This document shows positions 9,101 to 35,555 of a stretch of 64,000 bases of DNA, piece by piece (positions within the stretch are counted from its first letter, which is position 1; every line of letters begins with the position of its first letter). The DNA lies in contig NC_090287.1 of assembly GCF_037392515.1 (NCBI RefSeq), forward strand, positions 10,793,501-10,857,500, in the 5' to 3' direction. The translations under genes were made by a program, and so were the position numbers. Under the pieces are notes generated by a model. That model searched no databases and was not told the DNA's origin. It saw nothing but the letters and a program-made list of their open reading frames with translations. Source of the DNA: Haliotis asinina. Its lineage: Eukaryota; Mollusca; Gastropoda; Lepetellida; Haliotidae.

Positions 9101-12100
9101 AGACGGGACTCGGGTGCACGAGTCATAAATCAACTTATTTTCTCTATGTCGTATACTCTGATAGGTGTTAAGTTCAAATTACACGTGGTCAATGATTGAA
9201 GCTGTGTACTGCATGTTGTCTTTAGCAGACAGGCAGGCAGACATATAGGTGTGAATAAACCAGACACTGAGCTTTCTCTGTGCTTACCACAATCAACAAG
9301 TTTTTTTACGTAACGAGTAGACCATTTACTTGTTTGTGTACACAACCAAGATTAGACTACTGCTCACGACCTCTGACGCTGGGCATGCATACTGTTTCAA
9401 GTCCCGCGAACCTATTCACTGAGCATGCGTTATGGACGCAGTGCAGCACAGCTGTTGAAACCAGTTTTCCCCCCAGCGCTGGGGGGAATTTAGTGAAACG
9501 TTTGAACTCCGATTTCGCGGGCTTTTTTTTCATCGCGTTTTTTTTTCAACTTTATAGGTTGAATTGGCATTTTTTATGATTTGTTTCGGTAAGTGCATAC
9601 CGAAAGGTACCAGAATCTGCAAAGTTGTGTTTTACGTTGCATGTGACCTTTAATATTTTGCTCTGTATGGAGAAACAAACATATAATTTCGACCAACAAC
9701 ATATTATTTTTACAACATCTGGCTTTCTCCCTGAACAATTCATTCTATTTGCTCTACATACACCTGATGACAAAAGACAATGAGTGACAACCCTGAAACA
9801 AGAACAGTCCATTTGACCTCTAGGTCCTGATACACTCACCCTATAGAACACGACAGAAATACTCCTGTCACTGCCAGCCAGCCCCACCAGGAAAAACTGA
9901 ATGGTCTGTAAGTAAAAACATGGATGTGAACTCCCTATTGTGTACGTCAATCATGGATTTGCTGTACAAAAATGTAACATCTAACTTGTCTACATGAAAA
10001 GAAATGCATGTGTACAAATACCTGTTTTGATACAGTTTGAACTTCACACATGAATAAGTCGCCATAATGATGAACACAAGCAGAATAGGGTCAAGTAGGA
10101 TGTGACGCGACAGTGTGATGGTGCCCACATCTGTAACAGAGATTACAGCATTGAACAATGTCATCTAACACCAACCCATGTGGTGGCATTGTGGTCAGTT
10201 ACAGACAGTCTGTGTGCCTACAAGTGTAACAGAGGCATTACACCACTGAAACATCATTAAAGGTAGATATAAGTTTAAAAGTGCTGGTGTACTCTGGAAC
10301 AGTAGCACATGTAAAATCTTGCCCTGAAAATTTTTCAACTGTACTGCTAAATTTGTTCAAGTAAACAACATAATTAACATTAGACAATTAACTGGACACC
10401 ACTACAGTGTGAAATACATAATTCCCTTGCTTGCCCGACAGGAAAAAATAATGAACTTGGACGTCGGGCAATGGGCTAATTTCTTTCCACCTCTGATCAT
10501 CTGACACTAAATTAGAGGGACTTATGGGGTTCAAATACAACAGAGACAGCTTGAGTGCCCATATCTGAAACTGTGTCTCATTGAATTACACGGAAATGAA
10601 TTTCATAACGGTCATGTGTTGTGTAATAGGAACATACCAAACAGGATAAGACAAGCAGCAAATATGGCAGCGACGATGGAATGGGTAAGCACCCACACAA
10701 CCTTGAAGGAGACAGGCACCAGCATAGCTCCACATGTAGCACAGAACTGAAACAGAAAGCCCACTGGACTAGTGATACATTGTTGCCTTCATGTTTTCAT
10801 TCAACAGCGCATATTCACATCCTGCAAGACCACAACATTCGAAGACAAACTACACTTGTTAAAAATATTTGATGCATAATTACATTACCATTTTGATAAT
10901 TACTCATCAATCTCATAATAACATCTATCAAATCATTTTGAGAAGTGTCCTTGTTAAAATTCTCATGTGTCTCAATGTCTTCCTTGTCACTACTCTCACA
11001 TGAATCAATGTCCTCCCAACACCAGTCACACATGTCTTAATGATTATTCACCATTCTCACATGTCTTTGAGTTGTCCTTGTCACCATTCTCACATGTCTG
11101 AGAGTTCCTTGTCACATTCTCATATGTCTAAGTGTCATCAAAGTCACTATTCTCACATGTCTGAGAGTCCTTGTCACAACTCTCACATGTCTAACTGTCC
11201 TCCTTGTTACCATTCTCACATGTCTCAGTTCCATCCCAGTCACTATTCTTTCATGTATCAGTTTTACAATAGGCACCACTCTTAAATGTCACATTGTCCT
11301 CCTCCTCACCACTCTTACGTAGTATCTCAGTGTCATCCTAGTCACCACTCTCTCATGCCTCAGTTTCATCCCAGTCACAACACTCAGATGTCCTCTCACT
11401 TACCACTCTGACATATCTCAGGAACCCCATACTCACCTCATACACGTACCTCAGAAACCCCATGTTCACCACTCTCACATATCTTGGTAACCCCACACTC
11501 ACCATTTTCACAATGTCTCTGTAACCCCACACTCATCACTGTCACATATCTCAGTAACTCCATACTCATCACTGTCACATATCTCAGTAACCCCATACTC
11601 ATCACTGTCACATATCTCAGTAACTCCATACTCATCACTGTCACATATCTCAGTAACCCCATACGCATCACTGTCACATATCTCAGTAACCCCATACGCA
11701 TCACTGTCACATATCTCAGTAACTCCATACTCATCACTGTCACATATCTCAGTAACCCCATACTCATTACTGTCACATATCTCAGTAACCCCATACTCAT
11801 CACTGTCACATATCTCAGTAACCCCATACTCATCACTGTCACATATCTCAGTAACCCCATACACATCACTGTCACATATCTCAGTAACCCCATACACATC
11901 ACTGTCACATATCTCAGTAACCCCATACGCATCACTGTCACATATCTCAGTAACCCCATACTCATCACTGTCACATATCTCAGTAACCCCATACTCACCA
12001 CCCTCATGCCCACATAGTTGGTGTCTCCATACTCATCTCCAGGTTTAGCAAAGGCAAAGCTGCCATCGTAACCTGTTGTTACACCAGCCAAGCCAATAAG

Positions 12101-15100
12101 CATCTGGAAAATGATTAACACAGGTTAACACATAGTTCATGGACATGTTTACTGTAAGACTTTACATCCAAACAGCATATGGTTCGAATGTAGATGAGAT
12201 CAGATGGAAAGATTTGTTGTCCTTGGAACTGGATTCTTGGTAACTGCAGAAATCGATGCTAATGATATCAATCATCAGATTGTCTTCTCTGGACTGGACT
12301 TGATTATTTACAGACTGCAGGATTATGGCTGCAATATTGCTGAGTTCTGTGTCAAACTTGACTCCAAGTGTAACACCCCCACCACTCTCACCAGAAAAAC
12401 AAAACTTGCACAAAACAACTAATCACCTTATAATGTTCCTTAGTATTGCACTTGTATTTTGTATCATGACATTCATGGCTTTTCATGATATTTCATACTG
12501 ACCAAGAACTTGTCTGAGGATCACTACATGTATTTCAAACTGGTGGTCTGTGTATATTCCTTCTTCAAAGACATTCTCGCTTGTGTGTGTTCAGGGGAGA
12601 CATCTTGCAATACTCTTCCTTTCCGAATTTAATCAAATCCACTTAGCCTGTCCAAATATGACACTAGAATGTGTTGCTAACTGCTCAATCAACAGTTTAC
12701 TGAATTGTGTAACTATAGAGACAAAACAAATGCTTGTTTGAAAGTAGCGAGAACAATATTATCAGCTTCAGTATATCAATTCATATAATCAAGATCAAAG
12801 ACCTTATAATGATCAAAGTGAAATCTTGTTGTAGTGAGTGAGTAGGTGAGTTTGATTTTACATCGCTTTTAGCAATATTCCAGCAATATCACAGCAGGGT
12901 ATACCGGAAATGTGCTTCACCCACTGTACCCCTGTGATATGAAGACTGATGTATTACAATCTCCATATTGATTTTCCTGTGTATGTTTTATCTCCAATCA
13001 GCTGATATTATCATGCTTATTGTTCAATCACTAATCATACATTATCATTAGCTACAGATTAATTCAGGTGAATTCAGATCAGACTCACCACTGAACAAAG
13101 ATCACATACTGATTTGCTGTTCTCCATAACATTTTGCCAAAGTTTACCTCTGTAACTGTTCATTTTGAACCATACTACTGTTTCATATGTTTAATCCCTT
13201 TTCTGAAACATAGTACTTCAGATTTAATTCAACGTTGAAAACCAGTCTCTTATAAAAAAAAAAACCCACGGTGACGTTCAAATGATTCACTAAGTTTCCC
13301 CCAGAACTGGGGGAAAAAGGGGTTTCAACAGCAATGTGCTGCTGCGATCATAACTCATGCGCAGTGAATAGGTACGTGGAGCTTGGAGTATGAGGTCAGG
13401 TGCAGTAGTCTTATCTTGATTGTATACACAAACAAGTAAATAATCAACTCGTTACATAAAAAAAATGTTGATTGTGATGGGCAGCCTCTGTCACAGAGAA
13501 CACTCAATGTCTGGCTTATTGACACCTACATGTCTACCTGCCTGTCTGTCTGCTAATGACAATGTGCAAAGCACAACTTCAATCTTTGTCCACATGCAAT
13601 TTGAAATTAACACCTATCTGGTAAAGATACCTATAAACAAAGAGCCGGCTAAGCATATTGGCAAATGAACCAGTGGCGAATGAGAAAGCTTCACTTGAGT
13701 GCACACAGGCTGTTTCTGGGTTCTGCCTCCCAAGTGCTTCCTTTCAAGGGATGTAAACCCTAGTGCAAAATACTGCACCTTTGATTTGTGATTATATGCT
13801 TATAATTTTGTTTATTTGTTTTTTCTTAACCAGAGAGGCAATTTATGTATCACGAATAAGCAATAGCGGTGTTTTAATAATGTTTGATTATTTGATTGCA
13901 TGTGACCCTTAATGAATAACAAATTACTAAGGATAAAGGGCATTTTCCCCTATTTGACAGTATTGTGGGTTTGGGTTTGGGTTTGGGTTTGGGTTTGGGT
14001 TTGGGTTTGGGTTTGGGTGTGGGTGTGGGTGTGGGTGTGGGTGTGGGTGTGTGGGCGTGAGCATGGGCATGGATGTGGAAACACTATATGTATTTGACAG
14101 TCGTAAGACAAAACACTTTATCTTCACCATTTGTGTCCTGTGTCAGGTAATATTACACTGAGTGAACTACTGCACTGTAAGGCTTGATCATTACTTTCAT
14201 TACAGGATCTTATCAAGAATTTGGTACAATGAATTATTGTGGTACCCAAGAGATACAGTAAACACGTTTCTCTGCATCCATAGTATTCATTTGTGTATAC
14301 TGGATATTTATTTCTGTGGCATGTAAAAGACTGCTATCAGCATGATTATGGTGTACAGTATCATCAAAACCCACAACACTACAAACGATTAACTACACCA
14401 AATACTAACAGCATTGCTCAAGTACATCTCCTACCTGAGAAGTCAATACACTACCTGGGGAAATTGATATTGATTACTGCTATTGACAATGAAGACATGA
14501 TTGACAGCTCGTTGGACTCATGCTTGCTTGTGTCAATCAATACAAAACATACATCATAGATGAAGATCAATACATCCAGGCTGAACTCCAATGACCAAGC
14601 CTCCACGGTATTTCTCAGCAACACAAGGATGGAACAACTGTCAAATTACCATCTCTATGCTTTAAGCATATATTTTTTCTCCATTTTGCAAAATAGCTCC
14701 TATCACCAGCTCAGTTTCTCAATTCAACCACAGAGCACGGACTTTCTCTTACTGAACACAGGTTTAGTATAGACCTACATTTAAACTGCCCGCACTGTAT
14801 ATATTGTCAATAGATTCAGTATTGATTAACAGTGCTGTCACAGGACTGTCGTGACGGAACTTTCATGCATTGAAGATGTTTCCTGAGTACAAAATGGTTT
14901 TGTCTCCATGCTTCAAGAACAATTGTTTCCGCTGTTGGGAGGGGAAGGAATTTTGGTTTGACATTAGCAATTATTTTAATGTTTCAAAGTGAATTAAAAA
15001 AAAAAGAACAAGCATTGTCACTCAGGTGACATAATCAAATCAAACTTTGTGCTAAAACCTTCAAAGTGTCGCAGTGACCTTGAAAATGATGTGAAGGTCA

Positions 15101-18100
15101 CCAAAATCGGTTGGGCTCTACACCATCTTTAAGTAAAGCTTGGTGTCAAACATTAAGAAATCCAGCAACCAGTTCTTGAGATATCTTGTTGGCAAGCTAA
15201 ACACATATGTGAACATGCTGACACCTTCAAAGTGAAGGGTGGACCTTGAAAATGATGTGAAGGTCACCAAAATCAACTGGGCCCTATGCCATCCCTAAAT
15301 AAAGCATGGGGTCAAATATGAAAAAATCCAGCAACTGGTTCTTGAAATATCTCGCGGACAAGGGTAAAACGTGAAAGTCCCCCTGTGACCTTGACATAGA
15401 GGTCAAGGTCACCAAACCTGACTAGAACCTTTCTCATATAGTGATGAACCTAGGTACCAAATATGAAAAGAATGTAGGCAACCTTTCATTACATATTGCA
15501 TTTCATAGGTACTGATGGATGGAGCCTCATACCATATCCCCCACTTTGCGCTAAACGCGTGGAGGGGAGATAAGATTAAAAAAACAAAATCAGATCAGAT
15601 AGTCACTTTAAAACTTAACAGTAAAATGAAACTGATTACCTACAAGGTGAGGTGTGAGTAGAACAAATTCAGTAAAACAAGAGTGTGTGAGTGATTTAGT
15701 TTGATTTTACACCACTTTATAAATTATATTCCACCAATATCATGATGTAGACACCACAGTCTAAGTAATCTTAGCTCCAGTGTTATTTGTTACACTCCCA
15801 CACTGGGTCTAACATAGTAACAAAAGTTAGTAGGAGGTCACGTCAGGTAATCCTTGAGCAACCTATGACAGTCCAAACAAATTTGAAACAGCTAAACGGA
15901 TTTAACCAATCAGACAACAGCTACTGTTTTGGGTTTGGTGGGAATTACAACACACACAGGTCACTGACAATGATCTCTCAACAAATGAAAATCTTCATAT
16001 AACACTGATATTTTGACATGCAGCATATATGCTTTTTCTTTTTTGTTGACATGGTTACCATTAGCTAATATTTCCGCAAATTGACATTCTTGAATATTGC
16101 CAAAATTGCTATTTTCAGTGACTGTCTATTCACATGAAAATCAAAAGGAGGCTCACTCATAATGCTGATATGTTGCGGGAGCTATACTGGAACACCTAGC
16201 AATTGTTGATGGGATCACTATCCGTGGTGGTGATACTGCTGCCTGTTTCATACACAGTACTAGTGTATTGACTGATTTACTGCTACACCATTTCATTCAC
16301 ACTCAAAATGAAGCAATGAATGATCCAGATAGTAAATGGTTCTAAGGTATGTAATAACAGTAAAATGAATAATGTTGGAAGGGATGGGTTATAGACTGGC
16401 TGTGGATACGTTCCGACCTTTCAACTTCAACACAAAAGTAGAATGTAACATTGATATTGCAGTGAAACAGTATGTTTGTTTTTATTCAATTGTTCATTCA
16501 AAATGCTTTAAAATAGTACAATCCAGAATTTCAACAAGAGGATTGTGCCCATAATCCTGATAATACTCAATTTGAGGGTGCAATAACATGCCAGGTGCCT
16601 AAACAAGGGCGTATGCACACCCTGCACAATGATATGGACAAAACTCCCCTCGCATAATGTAACTTTGCTGGTCTTGTTTCAATCTAACTTTCCGGACATG
16701 GACTATCATTGTGTCAACACTTTCCATGTACTCGTTTGTCTTTATCATTATATTATACTAATGACAACTGAATTGTGTTTCATATCGTAATTCAGGATTA
16801 GGCTTTATTTGTTTCAAGCTTAAGCTGTCAACCACATTTGCATTTGTTGCCATGGTTACTGATTCTATGGTCTCTTATTTGCAATCTCTTAACTAGCATT
16901 AAAAATTGATCAACTCATTCAATAGCCACAAAAATCTTGACGAGGAAAGAGGGAAACAATATCAATCAGTCAACACTATCAACAAGAACAAATCTTGAAA
17001 CCATGGAAACAAGCACAAGTCTGTTGCCACAAGCATTCTCTTGATGGTTCAAATTTGCAATTTGTCCACACGACTGAATATCACCAATGGTGTCTACCCT
17101 GCAATTTTAGTATATAATTCTGGATCCACATTATTATGGCCAGGGGTCCTCTCCAATCATACTAAGTATGCTACAGAAACACTCTTTAAAGACTGTAAAA
17201 CATGGTCTTACATATAATGCATCATCATGATCATAAGGACTGGTTCAAAATAATGATGACCATAAAAATGATAAAGACTAAAGGCACATAATCATGATCA
17301 TAAGTTCTAATGATACGTATTCATGATCATAAGGATTACTGACACATATTTTTTATCAAAAGGACTAATGATACTTAATCTTGATCATTAGGACTAATGA
17401 CACATATTCTTGATCATAGAGACTAGTGATACTTAGTCTTGATCATATTCATAAGGACTAATGACATGTATTCATGATCACGAGGACTACTATCAAATAA
17501 TCATTATAACCTATACCAAAGTATATGCTAGGTCCAACTAGGTCCTTAATGTTGAGTCAGGCCTGTATCATGTGTATGCCCTTGGGCTAGGGTCAGGTCA
17601 AACAAGGTGACTTTGTAGGAATATGTTGTTACAGGCAGCAAGTCCTGACTCTACCAAGGCATGGAGGGAACACTATGGATTACCTTGCCTAAGGGCGGAT
17701 GCACATCAAAAAAGAATGTCCGGTTGATATACCAGCTTCCCATTTTCCCAAAGTGGGTTTCGTCCCAGCTGCAATGAAGTATATCAATCATGTGAGGGAA
17801 AAGCAAGACAGGTGGTTCTTAATGGTATAAGTTCCTCCAAAACAATCCACTGAATGCAAAAGAAATCGATCATAATCATGATACAATAAACATGAGAAAA
17901 GAACAGTATTCATCATTTCTTCTCATGGCCATTAGTAACTATATAAGCAACATGATATGCTGACCATGGTAGACTTTCACTACGTTCAAGCTACACTAGA
18001 TGATAGATCAGAAGGTATGTGTTCTAGTCTTGCTAGTGTTCTACATGTTCTGCAGTTTTCTAGCAGTACAAATTCTACATGTTCTATGGCAATAACTGAC

Positions 18101-20120: not shown

Positions 20121-23100
20121 ATGTCGAAGGTAAAACTTCCTCACCATAAACTATATACATGCCTTTGTGTTCACATACGTTATCGCTAAGGGGTAGGTGA
20201 CACGCTCTTTCTCTCTCGGCAGTCCTGTTGCAAACTAGTGTATGACTGTATCTCTGTTTCTGTTACAAGGCTACACCGAGGCTCGGTGATTTTTCCTAAG
20301 TCTGCTTCACAAATGAATACCGATAACTACTGACACAGATGTGCTACCGCATTTACTCTGTTAGATGTCAGGATGTAATATTTTACGTGCACTGCACATT
20401 ACTTAGTCGGTCCTAACACTCCTAAAATGTATCTGCATAACGAATCCAATGACATTATCTATAAGAAAATATATGTCATATGAAATAGAACGTGGTTTCG
20501 TCACACTAATGCATGCGACTTTATTGGTGAATTGTTTCATAATCAGTCGTTATTTGTTTTTCTAATCATTGACAAATTTGCCTAATGTTTGCGCTGAAAA
20601 CTGATTAATGTACGGTTTAGTACGACCACATTTTCACGGAATCTGTCAAAGTTACCATTGTACTTTACTGAAATGTATATGGGAGCTACCCGTAAAGATT
20701 CCGGGGTAGAATAAGCCTTCAGTAACCCATGCTTGCCATAAAAGGCGACTATGCTTGTCGTAAGAGGCGACTAAAGGGATCGAGTGGTCAGGCTCGCTGA
20801 CTTGGTTGGCACATGCCATCGGTTCCCAATTTCGCAGATCGTTGCTCATGTTGTTGATCACTGGATTGTCTGGTCCAGACTCGATTATTTACAGACCGCC
20901 GCCATATAGCTGTAATATTGCTGAATGCGGCGTAAAACTAAACGCACTTACTCACTCACTCACTCGTATATGGGAGTATGTTTGCTTAAGGGGAGATGGG
21001 TAGCTTAGTGGTTAAAGCGTTTGATCTTCACGCAAAAGACCCGAGTTCGATTCGCCTCATGGGTTCAATATGTAAAGCCAATTTCTGGTATGATGTGGGT
21101 CGAATATTGTTAACAGCGGCGAAAAAACCTCACTCACCCATTTGTTCACATGATGTACATAATGTGTTGCAACTGTGATTAGCTGGCTCGCCCCATGACG
21201 TGTTCCTATAAAATAAAATAATGTGTGTTTTTCCGGCCTTATATTTGGCATATCTAGCTAGCATGGTCATTACGAGGCGATCCCGTCATGTGCACTCTCT
21301 AATACTGGATAATCAACTTCAGAAAAGTTTGTATGATTTCTTAGGTTAGTATTTTTTACAAATTTCTCCCAGATCTTGAATGTGTACAGGACATCATCTG
21401 TCAGAGCACTAATTTATTGTCACTAGACAGTCAGTTCTTTTTTTCTGGTTTAATAGTAACTCAGTTTTCATACTTTGGCTATATAGTCTCTCATGTACTT
21501 CTCCCGACGGTTGCGCACCGGAAATCGCAGCTTCTTCGAATTTGCCATTGATTCTCATTTACTTTTTTCGTTTTCAGGGTTCAACTGTCGATTAGTTTAG
21601 TCACATTTGATTCCTTTCATTTGTTACTTCAGAGCTTCCTTTGTAATTACAGAACATTTGTGTTCCCACAGCAGAGCTCTGCGTGTAATGCGCTTTTTGA
21701 ATAGCATCGCTGCCGTGTGCGACATTTATGTACTGTAGGGATGTTATACGTCAGTTTGGTAAGAAAGCACTGAATGACCAGGAAACCGTCACTGGAAACT
21801 CTGGTGTTTGAAACGAAACTTTCATATCAATTAGTTAATAAAACAATCTTTTCACTGTTGTGTAGAGGATGCTTCTCTACGGCCACTGTTCAAGTTCCTG
21901 CACCTGGAGAGTGAAAATAGGTACGTAAGAAATTTATCCGAAATTTATGTCATGATATATTGATATCTAAGATAATGCAGTTTGGTTACGTTCAGTGTTT
22001 TGCTGTGCGAATTACGATATCACACTATCAGTTGAACCGAATATTATTTACAATCCACAACATAGCATTATTAAGCCTGCATGGAAGTGATTTAGGGAAA
22101 TGGAGTTCACGGCAAACAGATTACTGTGGGGATGGTTCAACTGTCTTATGGCTTGGATCGTAAGTGCCACGCACCTGCCTGTCTGGCTCTAGTCGAGGCT
22201 TTACATGTGCTGTATGGACAGACAGACAGACAGACAGACAGTCATGTGTCTTATACACAAAAGTAGAATGCAGAGACCGTAACGTACTGTTGTTCCATTT
22301 TCAGCTCTGGCAATCAAAGGAATGCAGTATGAAGAAGTTTCCTTGACGGATGATTTAATGGTAGGACAAATATTTTATGTTTTGGAGACTTTTGATTCTT
22401 TGTAAAATCACGATGATCACTCACACATTCATGCAATCATGAGATTCAGAATTAGACATGTTTATCCGATGCTCTTTGACGAAGTAATCAGTTACCCCGT
22501 GTCATCAAAAGTGACTTCGCCCAATGAAAGACGAAGTCAACCCTTGTAGATGTAGGATCTAGAATGAAAGGGAGAAACTGAGGGTATATTAGAACAAGGC
22601 TCACAAACAGAACAAGGCTAATAAAATAAGATTTTGATAATAATACTTTGATACTCCACACATGAAAGATTTCGTTTAAGGTGTTGAAAATTTAGTTAAC
22701 GTTGGGATCTTGTCTGGGTTATAGAGTGTTCTGTAATTATCTTCAGTGACAAACGTATTCAGGACGAGTAAGCACCCCAATGTCATGTCGTCTGTCTCAT
22801 CGTGTGTGGCTTCTTCGCTTCTCGCTCTGGAACAGTTAGAGATATGAGTTCCGATCCAGAAAGCGTTCGTAACATTACTACTTGTCGTAACTCTACAGTA
22901 TAAACACGGGCTTACGAATGTCGTAACTCTATAGTATAAACACGGGCTTACGAATGTCGTAACTCTACAGTATAAACACTGGCTTACGAATGTCGTAACT
23001 CTACAGTATGAACACGGGCTTACGAATGTCGTAACTTTGTAGTATAAACACGGGCTTACGAATGTCGTAACTCTACAGTATAGACACGGGCTTACGAATG

Positions 23101-26100
23101 TCGTAACTGTGTAGTATAAACACGGGCATACGAATGTCGTAACTCTACAGTATAAACACTGGCTTACGAATGTCGTAACTCTACAGTATGAACACGGGCT
23201 TACGAATGTCGTAACTCTACAGTATGAACACGGGCTTACGAATGTCGTAGCGCTACGAATGCCTTGTAGATCGGGACCGATCCGATCATTGTCACAGAAC
23301 TATTATAGAGGTTACATATTGTCACTTTTACATTCATATTCCAATCAAATAATATTAAGATAGGTAGTTTTATTTACATAGCTGTAGCAACGTATATACT
23401 GTCTGTCTCGAACTGACCATTGTGTGTAAGAGCTAACTGAATTAATTGTACAATGTAACGTTCGAATCATTAGCAGAACGGGAACTATTTCCGACAAACT
23501 AAATACTTTTCGTCAGTTAAAACAGTGATTTATTTGCTTTCATTTGAATTTATCCATGTGCCCTGTGTGGCGTTATCTTGTACACGTGAATTCAAAAGAG
23601 TATTTCGTATTTCGTTTGTATTTCGTTTTGTTTTTCTGATAGTGCTGCTAAAAATCTTGACCTGCGGTGGTCTGTTGATCTCAACGCATTAGGTTCAAAT
23701 TACAGTTTGGACATAGCTGAAGAATACTTCTCTGGTTACGGTTTGCAGGAAAACTGTCCCAACTTCTTGAAAGCCAGTCCTTTGCGGCAGGTGCCAGCTC
23801 TTGTACATGGCGAATGCTGTTTGACGCAGTCGGTTAGTAAACAAATCTTCCATTTATGTAGCATCTAAAGTGATTATTCATATGGACATTTATTGATCAG
23901 TACCAATTTCATCATTTTCAAAGTATGTTTGTTATCTGACCACACAGTCTTCGTACCATCATCTCAATTCAACGGATGTGTCACCAATAATGCTTTATAC
24001 TGAAATGATCATTGTACGAAATATAGGATTGAATATATTGTCATATATGACAAATCCATTTTAACACCTGATCCTAAATACGATGTAAGTTGTAGCTGAA
24101 CAGTGTCCAGGTTGGAACGTTATTATTGGCTTATCAGTGTCAATGATGTCTGGTTTTGACTAGTACTGTACGTTACCATAAATAACTGCAGGGCCCACAT
24201 GCACAAAGCGATCTTAGCGCTACGATTATTAAACCTATGTTGGAGAATGAGATTTACAATCATTGTAGAGCTAAGATCGCTCTGTGCAAGTGATCCATGC
24301 ATGTTTACGTGACGGGCGCTTCCAGTTCTCAAGTTTTCGCGAACACTTGGTATCATAAATGTTTCATAGTGATTCACAAACAAATGCTGATGATATAGTC
24401 GTAAGCATACAATTGAATCCGCTCCCAGCAAAAATAGTTTCCTCCCTGTGCCTTTTAGATAGCCATCTTAGAGTACCTGGAAGAAATACAACCCAACCCA
24501 CGATTGCTGCCAGTGGACCCAGTTCTGAGAGCGAAGGTATGTTCACTTCCTTTGTCCCTGAGCCTGTGACGATTCTTGCACTGCAGAACAACACCAGGTT
24601 TGCTGCATCTTTTATTCACCCATGTTGAATTGTACAATGGAGGTGTTTATTCTGAAGTACATAATCTCTGCTGTGATTGCGTTTCCAGCTTTATTTGTGT
24701 TCACCACACATCTGTTTTTTGTTACTTCTGTCATTTGCTCGCTACTATACTCTACATTAACCCGAGCTCATATTTTTGTTACATAACACTGTGCTAACCT
24801 ATATGAATGAATCCACAATATGGAAGTGTGTGCATTCTGAAGAAGTTTGATATTCATATGTGAATGTTCTGAGCTATCACGATGTACCATTTCCATGAAT
24901 AAAGGTTCTATCTGTTCTCGTGTATAATAACCCATTCATGAATTTTCTCAATGCCCTTGGTGTAAAAATGCCATGAACGAATATTTTCAATGCCTTTCGT
25001 GTATATAACCAATCGAAGAATGCCCACTATTCGATAAGTGTTGTGGATGCTTTTGTAGTGCAACTGACATTAATGTTCTGTATTTGACAGGTGTATAATT
25101 AACTTGATTGAATTGTCTCTGTTCTCAAAGTGTATAATTCAGAAACAATGTCTTGTTAGGCATGTATTAACTGTCTGATCTGTGTTGTTAAGATAATAGT
25201 ATATACTGATTGTCCGATATGTGTTGTTGAGATATATATTGACCGTCTTATCTGTGATGTTAAGGTATATGTTGACTGTCGGGTCTGTGTTGGTAAAGGA
25301 TTTATTGGTTGTATCTGTGTTGTTAAGGTATATATTGGCTGTCTCACCTGTGTTAGTAAGGCATATTGTGGCTGTCTTCTTTGTCTTGTTATAGAATATA
25401 CTAAGTGTCTTATCTGTGTTGATTAGGTATATATATATTGACTGATCTATGTTGTTTAGACCCGGGCACTGGCGGAGACAGTTGTATCATCTATCCAGCC
25501 ATACCAGTGCTGCAATGACACCATGGTATCCAGAGTTGGAGGGGAAGAGAAATTTAAGGAATGGGCAGACTTTTGGATAAACAGAGGGTTTGCTGGTATG
25601 GAGAACTGGAACATGCTGGAACATCAGAGAACGAACATGGCCTTTGTCACATGTGATTTATCTCTTCAGTGGCAAGAGATTTTATTTTTCATTATATAGT
25701 GACGAAATGATTAGTCCCTTCAAGGCTCCCTAAATTTCCCCTGAATCCCAAATTCACATGCATAGTAAAAATTCTAACGTGGATATTTACCATTAGCCAA
25801 ATCCACATTGTAATGCCCACGGTGCTCTTTTTTGGTTTGTGAATTCGATTTACATTTTGAGCAAGAAGAAAACGATGAAATAGGCTATATGTATACTCTT
25901 AGTCTAGTGACTATATAGATGAAAACAAAACCCATGCCGACTCAATGTTAAATTGTCCCATACACCTTAAATTCACTAGTTCTAGCACTCTCTCAATACG
26001 CACATTCTGGGGTGTATTCAACAATAATTCCCGTAAGGCGTTAAACAGCCACATTACCTTCTCAATCAACTCTACTGTCCATTAAATGAGAACAAAGGCA

Positions 26101-35267: not shown

Positions 35268-35555
35268 TGCATTGTGGGACTAACTTCGCCTTGTGCTGTA
35301 CAAAATGTTTGAAGACTAGACGTTGTGGGACGAGCTTTGTCTTGTGGTATACCAAACACTGGAAGACTAGACAGTGTAGGACGAGCTTCGCCCTGTGCTA
35401 TATACAAAACGTTGTAAGGCTAGACGTTGTGGAACTAGCTACCCCTTGTGCTATGCAAAACGTTGCAAGGCTAGACGTTGTGGAACTAGCTTCCCCTTGT
35501 GCTTTACAAAACGTTGGAAGGTGGTTATTGTGGGACTAGCTTAGTCACGCATACG
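35268..35555. repeat. 51-bp minisatellite in the 5' intron of transporter copy A
   Basis: Five full and one partial copy of a unit built on gttgtgggacgagctttgtc, then ttgtgctatacaaaacgttg, then gaagactagac. Single copies of related text (gagctttgccttgtcctata with acacacgtgcaagg) recur at 38880-38990, 44440-44560 and 55425-55560, each beside a copy of the SLC46 promoter block. Confidence 0.8.

Follow-up and report, generated by a model that had tools for sequence, protein, structure and literature searches.

In a 64,000-nucleotide stretch of the Haliotis asinina genome (contig NC_090287.1, positions 10,793,501 to 10,857,500; hereafter the window), a protein O-mannosyltransferase gene lies on the minus strand, and its intron 3 is mostly taken up by a 33-bp repeat array that opens with the splice donor of exon 3. 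Our preferred reading, to which we assign a probability of about three in four, is that this is an intronic minisatellite which grew in place, whose edge at the exon escaped homogenisation, and in which splicing has kept the G at donor position +1. The features on which the argument turns are as follows, with identities given relative to the repeat unit.

11999 to 12103, minus strand: exon 3; 105 nt coding for 35 residues, with both boundaries in phase 0.
11989 to 12001, minus strand: the real donor, GTG/GTGAGTATGG (the slash marks the exon-intron boundary), with +1 at 11998; the array edge placed by Tandem Repeats Finder (TRF) at 12001 is 3 nt inside the exon.
11537 to 11998, minus strand: young block, copies 1–14, 97–100% identical (copy 1 scored without its first base); copies 2–14 have A at donor +1.
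11404 to 11536, minus strand: intermediate copies 15–18, 70–88% identical; copies 16 and 18 retain GTGAGT.
10903 to 11403, minus strand: old copies 19–34, 53–67% identical; far end approximate.
10747 to 10902, minus strand: remaining 156 nt of intron 3, including the acceptor TTTCAG.
10639 to 10746, minus strand: exon 4, 36 residues; far end placed by eye.

Part of exon 2 joined to exons 3 and 4 matched the Pfam family PMT (PF02366) with an E-value of 6.1e-29. Among sequences of solved PMT proteins the same query matched 9i5k_A (a PMT of unnamed type, 7.6e-22), Pmt2 (8.9e-22), Pmt4 (1.4e-19) and Pmt1 (1.2e-14), and exon 3 queried alone gave Pmt2 as its sole match, a weak one (E 0.52). On this sequence evidence POMT2 is a likely label for the gene. 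A first version of a motif filter for other exons gave no match. Since exon 4 starts at 10746 with the protein frame maintained from exon 3, intron 3 is 1,252 nt long.

TRF reports an array at 11404–12001 (33 bp, 18.1 copies, 91% matches, score 949) and a second, weaker 33-bp array at 10961–11392. Wraparound alignment of intron 3 to the unit, with small gaps allowed, joins the two into 34 units running from 11998 to about 10903, which cover some 1,096 nt of the intron; copies 33 and 34 are weak, so the distal end is approximate. The initial annotation had the 33-bp array opening with the real exon 3 donor, and so it does: the unit match begins 3 nt upstream of the donor, and the exon closes with the codon GTG, which is identical to the three final bases of the unit. 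As to the extent then given, it holds for the young block and not for the full length. Units are spaced at exactly 33 bp up to copy 14, and small indels appear beyond, out to about 1 kb; copy 15 is 34 nt long and shifts the frame of the copies that follow it. Identity to the unit thus falls with distance from the exon, and the consensus of copies 19–32 is GTGACTAGGAGGACACTGAGACATGTGAGAATG. As a separate property of the same region, the sense strand has an excess of G over C across 10903–11998 (skew 0.68 in the young block and 0.46 in the old block) that could favour R-loops, and the 2-kb block containing the array shows the strongest skew in the window.

Copies 1 and 2 differ at a single base, unit position 1, which is G in the former and A in the latter. 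This A is present in every one of copies 2–15. G is found at the position in copies 16–18 and in 12 of the 14 copies 19–32 (the remaining two are gapped there), while T occupies it in copy 33 and copy 34 is gapped. Because of the A at +1 there is no GT at this place in copies 2–15, and they do not form donors in the present DNA sequence. Among the 13 copies 2–14, the stretch equivalent to the donor reads ATGAGTATGG in eight, ATGCGTATGG in three and ATGTGTATGG in two, with donor position +4 being C in copies 3, 10 and 11 and T in copies 4 and 5. The earlier description of one G-to-A difference between the donor and all later young copies is therefore right for position 1 but not for a uniform gtg/atgagtatgg, which with its preceding GTG is exact in 7 of the 13 copies 2–14 (one fewer than eight, since copy 7 ends in GTA). 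The return of G in copies 16–18 and in twelve of copies 19–32 suggests that A is probably the derived state. The simplest history would have G first, then a single change to A, and amplification of the A unit afterwards.

According to the preferred reading, growth in place through slippage or unequal exchange would have filled most of intron 3, from a start no more than 3 nt from the exon 3/intron 3 boundary and with decay increasing away from the donor. The most recent large amplification would have produced some 13–14 near-identical units beside the donor from a unit whose +1 G had already changed to A. Copy 1 may have kept its G for two reasons: the outermost base of an array would almost never be copied in exchanges between units, and exon 3 could no longer be spliced if the real donor had A at +1. 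The whole array would be expected to be spliced out (11998 to 10747) and to have no required function. The sequence shows the anatomy, the register, the gradient of age and the arithmetic of the frames, whereas the mechanism of growth, the polarity of the change from G to A and the normal use of 11998 are inferred. We simulated neutral exchange in 4,000 runs, with the first copy held at G, the outermost base hardly copied inwards and an A founder assumed. Copies 2–14 were all A in 81% of runs with founders G and A, in 83% with G, A and A, and in 35% with G, G and A. Under this model selection against decoy donors need not be invoked for the all-A block, and there is room for it as well.

The sequence supports the view that the donor in use is itself one unit of the array; how it came to be one is less clear. 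It was first proposed that the donor seeded its own array. Of this, membership of the donor in the array holds up, while its role as seed does not follow, because the stretch equivalent to the donor in the old units has the consensus GTGACTAGG, not GTGAGTATGG; for the same reason an origin from the donor and an origin within the intron are not separated. It is a tentative possibility, compatible with the preferred reading, that the array began when the 33 nt at the start of the intron, with GTGAGTATGG, were duplicated in tandem. The units are in register with the donor, with the unit match starting 3 nt ahead of it, and intermediate copies 16 and 18 carry GTGAGT, all of which speaks for it; against it stands the old-unit consensus. 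Alternatively, an array that arose first within the intron could have extended to the exon edge, where one of its units turned into the donor or took its place. The old units are indeed distal and the young ones at the exon, and the final exon codon is identical to the last three bases of the unit, but donor replacement would be needed and a three-base match may be chance, so that we consider this origin unlikely.

It is more difficult to see the array as a copy of the end of exon 3 into the intron, of the kind described for the mirages of amphioxus. The exon contains GATGAGTATGGAG (12037–12025), which agrees exactly over 13 bases with copies 9, 12 and 14; among 3,000 random 105-nt windows from the 64 kb there is no match of that length, and the alignment score is attained by 1%. 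When the exon is instead recoded synonymously 3,000 times, a 13-base match turns up in 8% of the versions and the alignment score is attained in 22%. For an old-type unit no exact match to the exon exceeds 6 bases, and its score is attained by 6.9% of windows. Exon-derived seeding was therefore set aside as not significant against synonymous versions of exon 3, and such an origin appears improbable.

The initial annotation also held that two older units carry a complete GTGAGT and that the exon 3 frame continues through the array to a stop at 11438, so that retention or decoy use would give an extended exon. Both observations are borne out; the consequence drawn from them fails for the two decoys then named but holds for one that was not. 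Donor scores were computed here from base frequencies of donors in animals. The top-scoring sites in intron 3 are 11436 (12.0), 11502 (10.3), 11998 (10.0), 11403 (9.6), 11309 (9.5) and 11449 (8.8), and GTGAGT occurs within 12103–10900 at 11998, 11502 and 11436 only. The sites that matter for the frame are the following.

11497 to 11502, minus strand: decoy ATG/GTGAGT, +496 nt (remainder 1 on division by three), frameshift.
11444 to 11449, minus strand: decoy GAG/GTACGT, +549 nt, in frame, would add 183 aa.
11438 to 11440, minus strand: TGA, from frame reading the first in-frame stop upon retention of intron 3.
11431 to 11436, minus strand: decoy GAG/GTGAGT, +562 nt, scores higher than the real donor and lies just past the in-frame stop.

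Site 11403 (+595 nt) is likewise past the stop, and 11449, which had not been named, is the sole in-frame site scoring at least 4.4 ahead of it. Of the named decoys 11502 shifts the frame and 11436 is behind the stop. Since the frame runs into TGA at 11440–11438, intron retention still gives a premature stop. The openness of the frame up to that point depends mainly on one stop-free unit, because 33 is divisible by three. In the exon frame 35% of shuffled units are free of stops, as are 49% of random 33-mers of about the composition of the window, and a second reading frame is likewise open across the young block. With P = 0.35 among shuffled units, we thus rejected the open frame as evidence of constraint. 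A Pfam search with the array peptide gave no family at the cut-off; its best E-value, 0.078, did not reach it. That the array is used, with retention or decoy donors producing an extended exon or tuning the amount of enzyme, is consequently very improbable. High-scoring GT sites exist at 11436, 11502, 11403 and 11449, and RNA of the young block folds more strongly per base than all 60 random windows; three of these four sites, however, lead to a frameshift or an earlier stop, the open frame is of the kind expected by chance, and the peptide matches no Pfam family at the cut-off.

Searches of the 1.14-Gb genome were word-seeded, skipped common words and scored only the best candidates. With queries from the old block and the intron tail (11403–11036 and 11403–10747) they returned no match beyond the locus itself, which fits growth in place. 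The young-block query returned at least 19 places: two at this locus and 17 spread over seven other sites, where the array periods are 34 (C11), 30 and 18 (C1), 33 (C8), 38 (C10), 19 (C6) and 13 (C14). We rejected a dispersed intron element similar to an introner, as 11403–10747 matches itself alone in a search that leaves out common words and the other sites have different units and mostly different periods. The C8 array (L007 1502–1774; 33 bp, 8.3 copies, 98% matches) adjoins a putative tRNA-derived dispersed repeat. The C11 array (L014 2772–4302, equal to L003 1453–2983) has 45 copies of 34 bp and contains AGGTGAGT 40 times, which makes about 40 possible donors; in it GTGAGTATGGG and ACTGAGATAT are ordered as in the intron 3 unit.

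Several observations weigh against the preferred reading. All seven other arrays have words of 13–17 bases in common with the young block (such as ATGAGTATGGGGTTAC at C8 and AGGTGAGTATGGGG at C11), and from the sequence the young unit may in part have had a dispersed source, although shared words are expected by design among the matches of a word-seeded search. A unit comparison that gave zero-of-100 counts used matches preselected for similarity and is not a fair test. The C11 array, moreover, has no exon directly in front of it and is situated about 200 bp ahead of a coding-looking exon. Within the intron, none of 62 GT sites in the first 495 nt scores 4.4 or more, and then 5 of 16 do so in the next 99 nt; selection against nearby decoys would also yield such a donor-poor 495 nt. 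This depletion is weakened by the 101 of 1,270 windows of 495 nt that are equally empty, and by the fact that the 495 nt are approximately one unit repeated, so that the units are not independent. Finally, we infer the normal use of 11998 from the sequence.

Predicted RNA folding gives z-scores against ordinary shuffles of –2.5 for 11900–12040, –7.6 for 11600–11740 and –0.3 for 11404–11540. For six perfect units against a null that keeps the repeats, the excess is modest (z = –2.1, reached by 12 of 400 shuffles), so that much of the fold strength comes from repetition. One could imagine the array as a latent ladder of in-frame donors at 33-nt steps, possibly switched on by adenosine-to-inosine (A-to-I) RNA editing. 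A single A-to-G change at copy 2, 6, 7, 9, 12, 13, 14 or 15 would create a donor scored like the real one, and donors so activated would add 33k nt (11k residues, for k units) without a stop. In the predicted fold of the RNA from 12203 to 10904 the position-1 A's of copies 2–15 are paired with a probability of at least 0.97, their likeliest partner being U (0.34–0.36 each), and therefore editing could activate donors in the transcript. It should be noted, however, that 13 of these 14 A's directly follow a G, and a 5' G neighbour is poor for ADAR. We find such a ladder extremely improbable.

The initial annotation considered a donor at the edge of its own array to be an unusual arrangement. It is not new: a similar layout is already known in human and lancelet genes, and what distinguishes the present array is a donor-competent first unit beside a donor-dead block. 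The closest likeness is the variable number tandem repeat of human ABCA7 intron 18, which adjoins the exon and opens with the GT of the exon 18 donor as its first two bases; in the reference its 25-bp units add up to 592 bp (PMC5954066). As in the abalone intron, where the TRF edge is at 12001 and donor +1 at 11998, an intronic array directly flanks an exon and begins with the exon's own donor. In ABCA7, though, retaining one 25-bp unit shifts the frame, whereas 33 nt here would keep it, and copies 2–15 of the abalone array are without the donor G. In amphioxus, mirages, minisatellite-like tandem repeats at exon-intron boundaries, are described in Adh3, globin, troponin C and PGBD5 (PMC3087553, PMC3902484), with cluster edges excluded from homogenisation and splicing reported as regular despite the arrays (PMC3087553). 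What is duplicated in globin includes part of the exon besides the splice signal, while in the abalone intron no more than 3 nt of the exon are covered by the unit match.

A different behaviour is known for human IFI6, whose repeat units were reportedly described as splice donors by Turri et al. 1995. A later source says the same of the IFI6 (6-16, G1P3) minisatellite (PMC4526556). There, downstream units are used as donors, whereas copies 2–15 here have no GT at the donor position. As to several donors of the IFI6 type, copies 16, 18 and 19 carry GTGAGT or GTAAGT, and copies 2–15 do not.

Outside human and lancelet, the abalone array offers a clear example of a minisatellite that keeps register with a splice donor, and it illustrates how a single constrained base at the edge may stand apart from the homogenised units that follow. 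It may be useful for asking how frequently arrays end right at an exon edge and whether units that cannot serve as donors are favoured in amplification. The general picture of splicing and of the gene is unchanged, and nothing shows a function for the repeat.

Other repeats are present in the window. A dispersed repeat word has six copies, at 20906, 26877, 45664, 52957, 58660 and 61211 (2–3 mismatches, 0 expected); we take it to be one that occurs in abalone-like gastropods, and a literature search gave no paper on it. Further minisatellites with units of 29–51 bp are found at 2508–2829, 17271–17489, 22883–23256, 25149–25456 and 35272–35542. The one at 17271–17489 starts about 194 bp past the exon 2 donor and so does not abut it. 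Intron 2 also contains a G-rich hexamer run, TGGGTT repeated 13.8 times with 98% matches, at 13966–14048.

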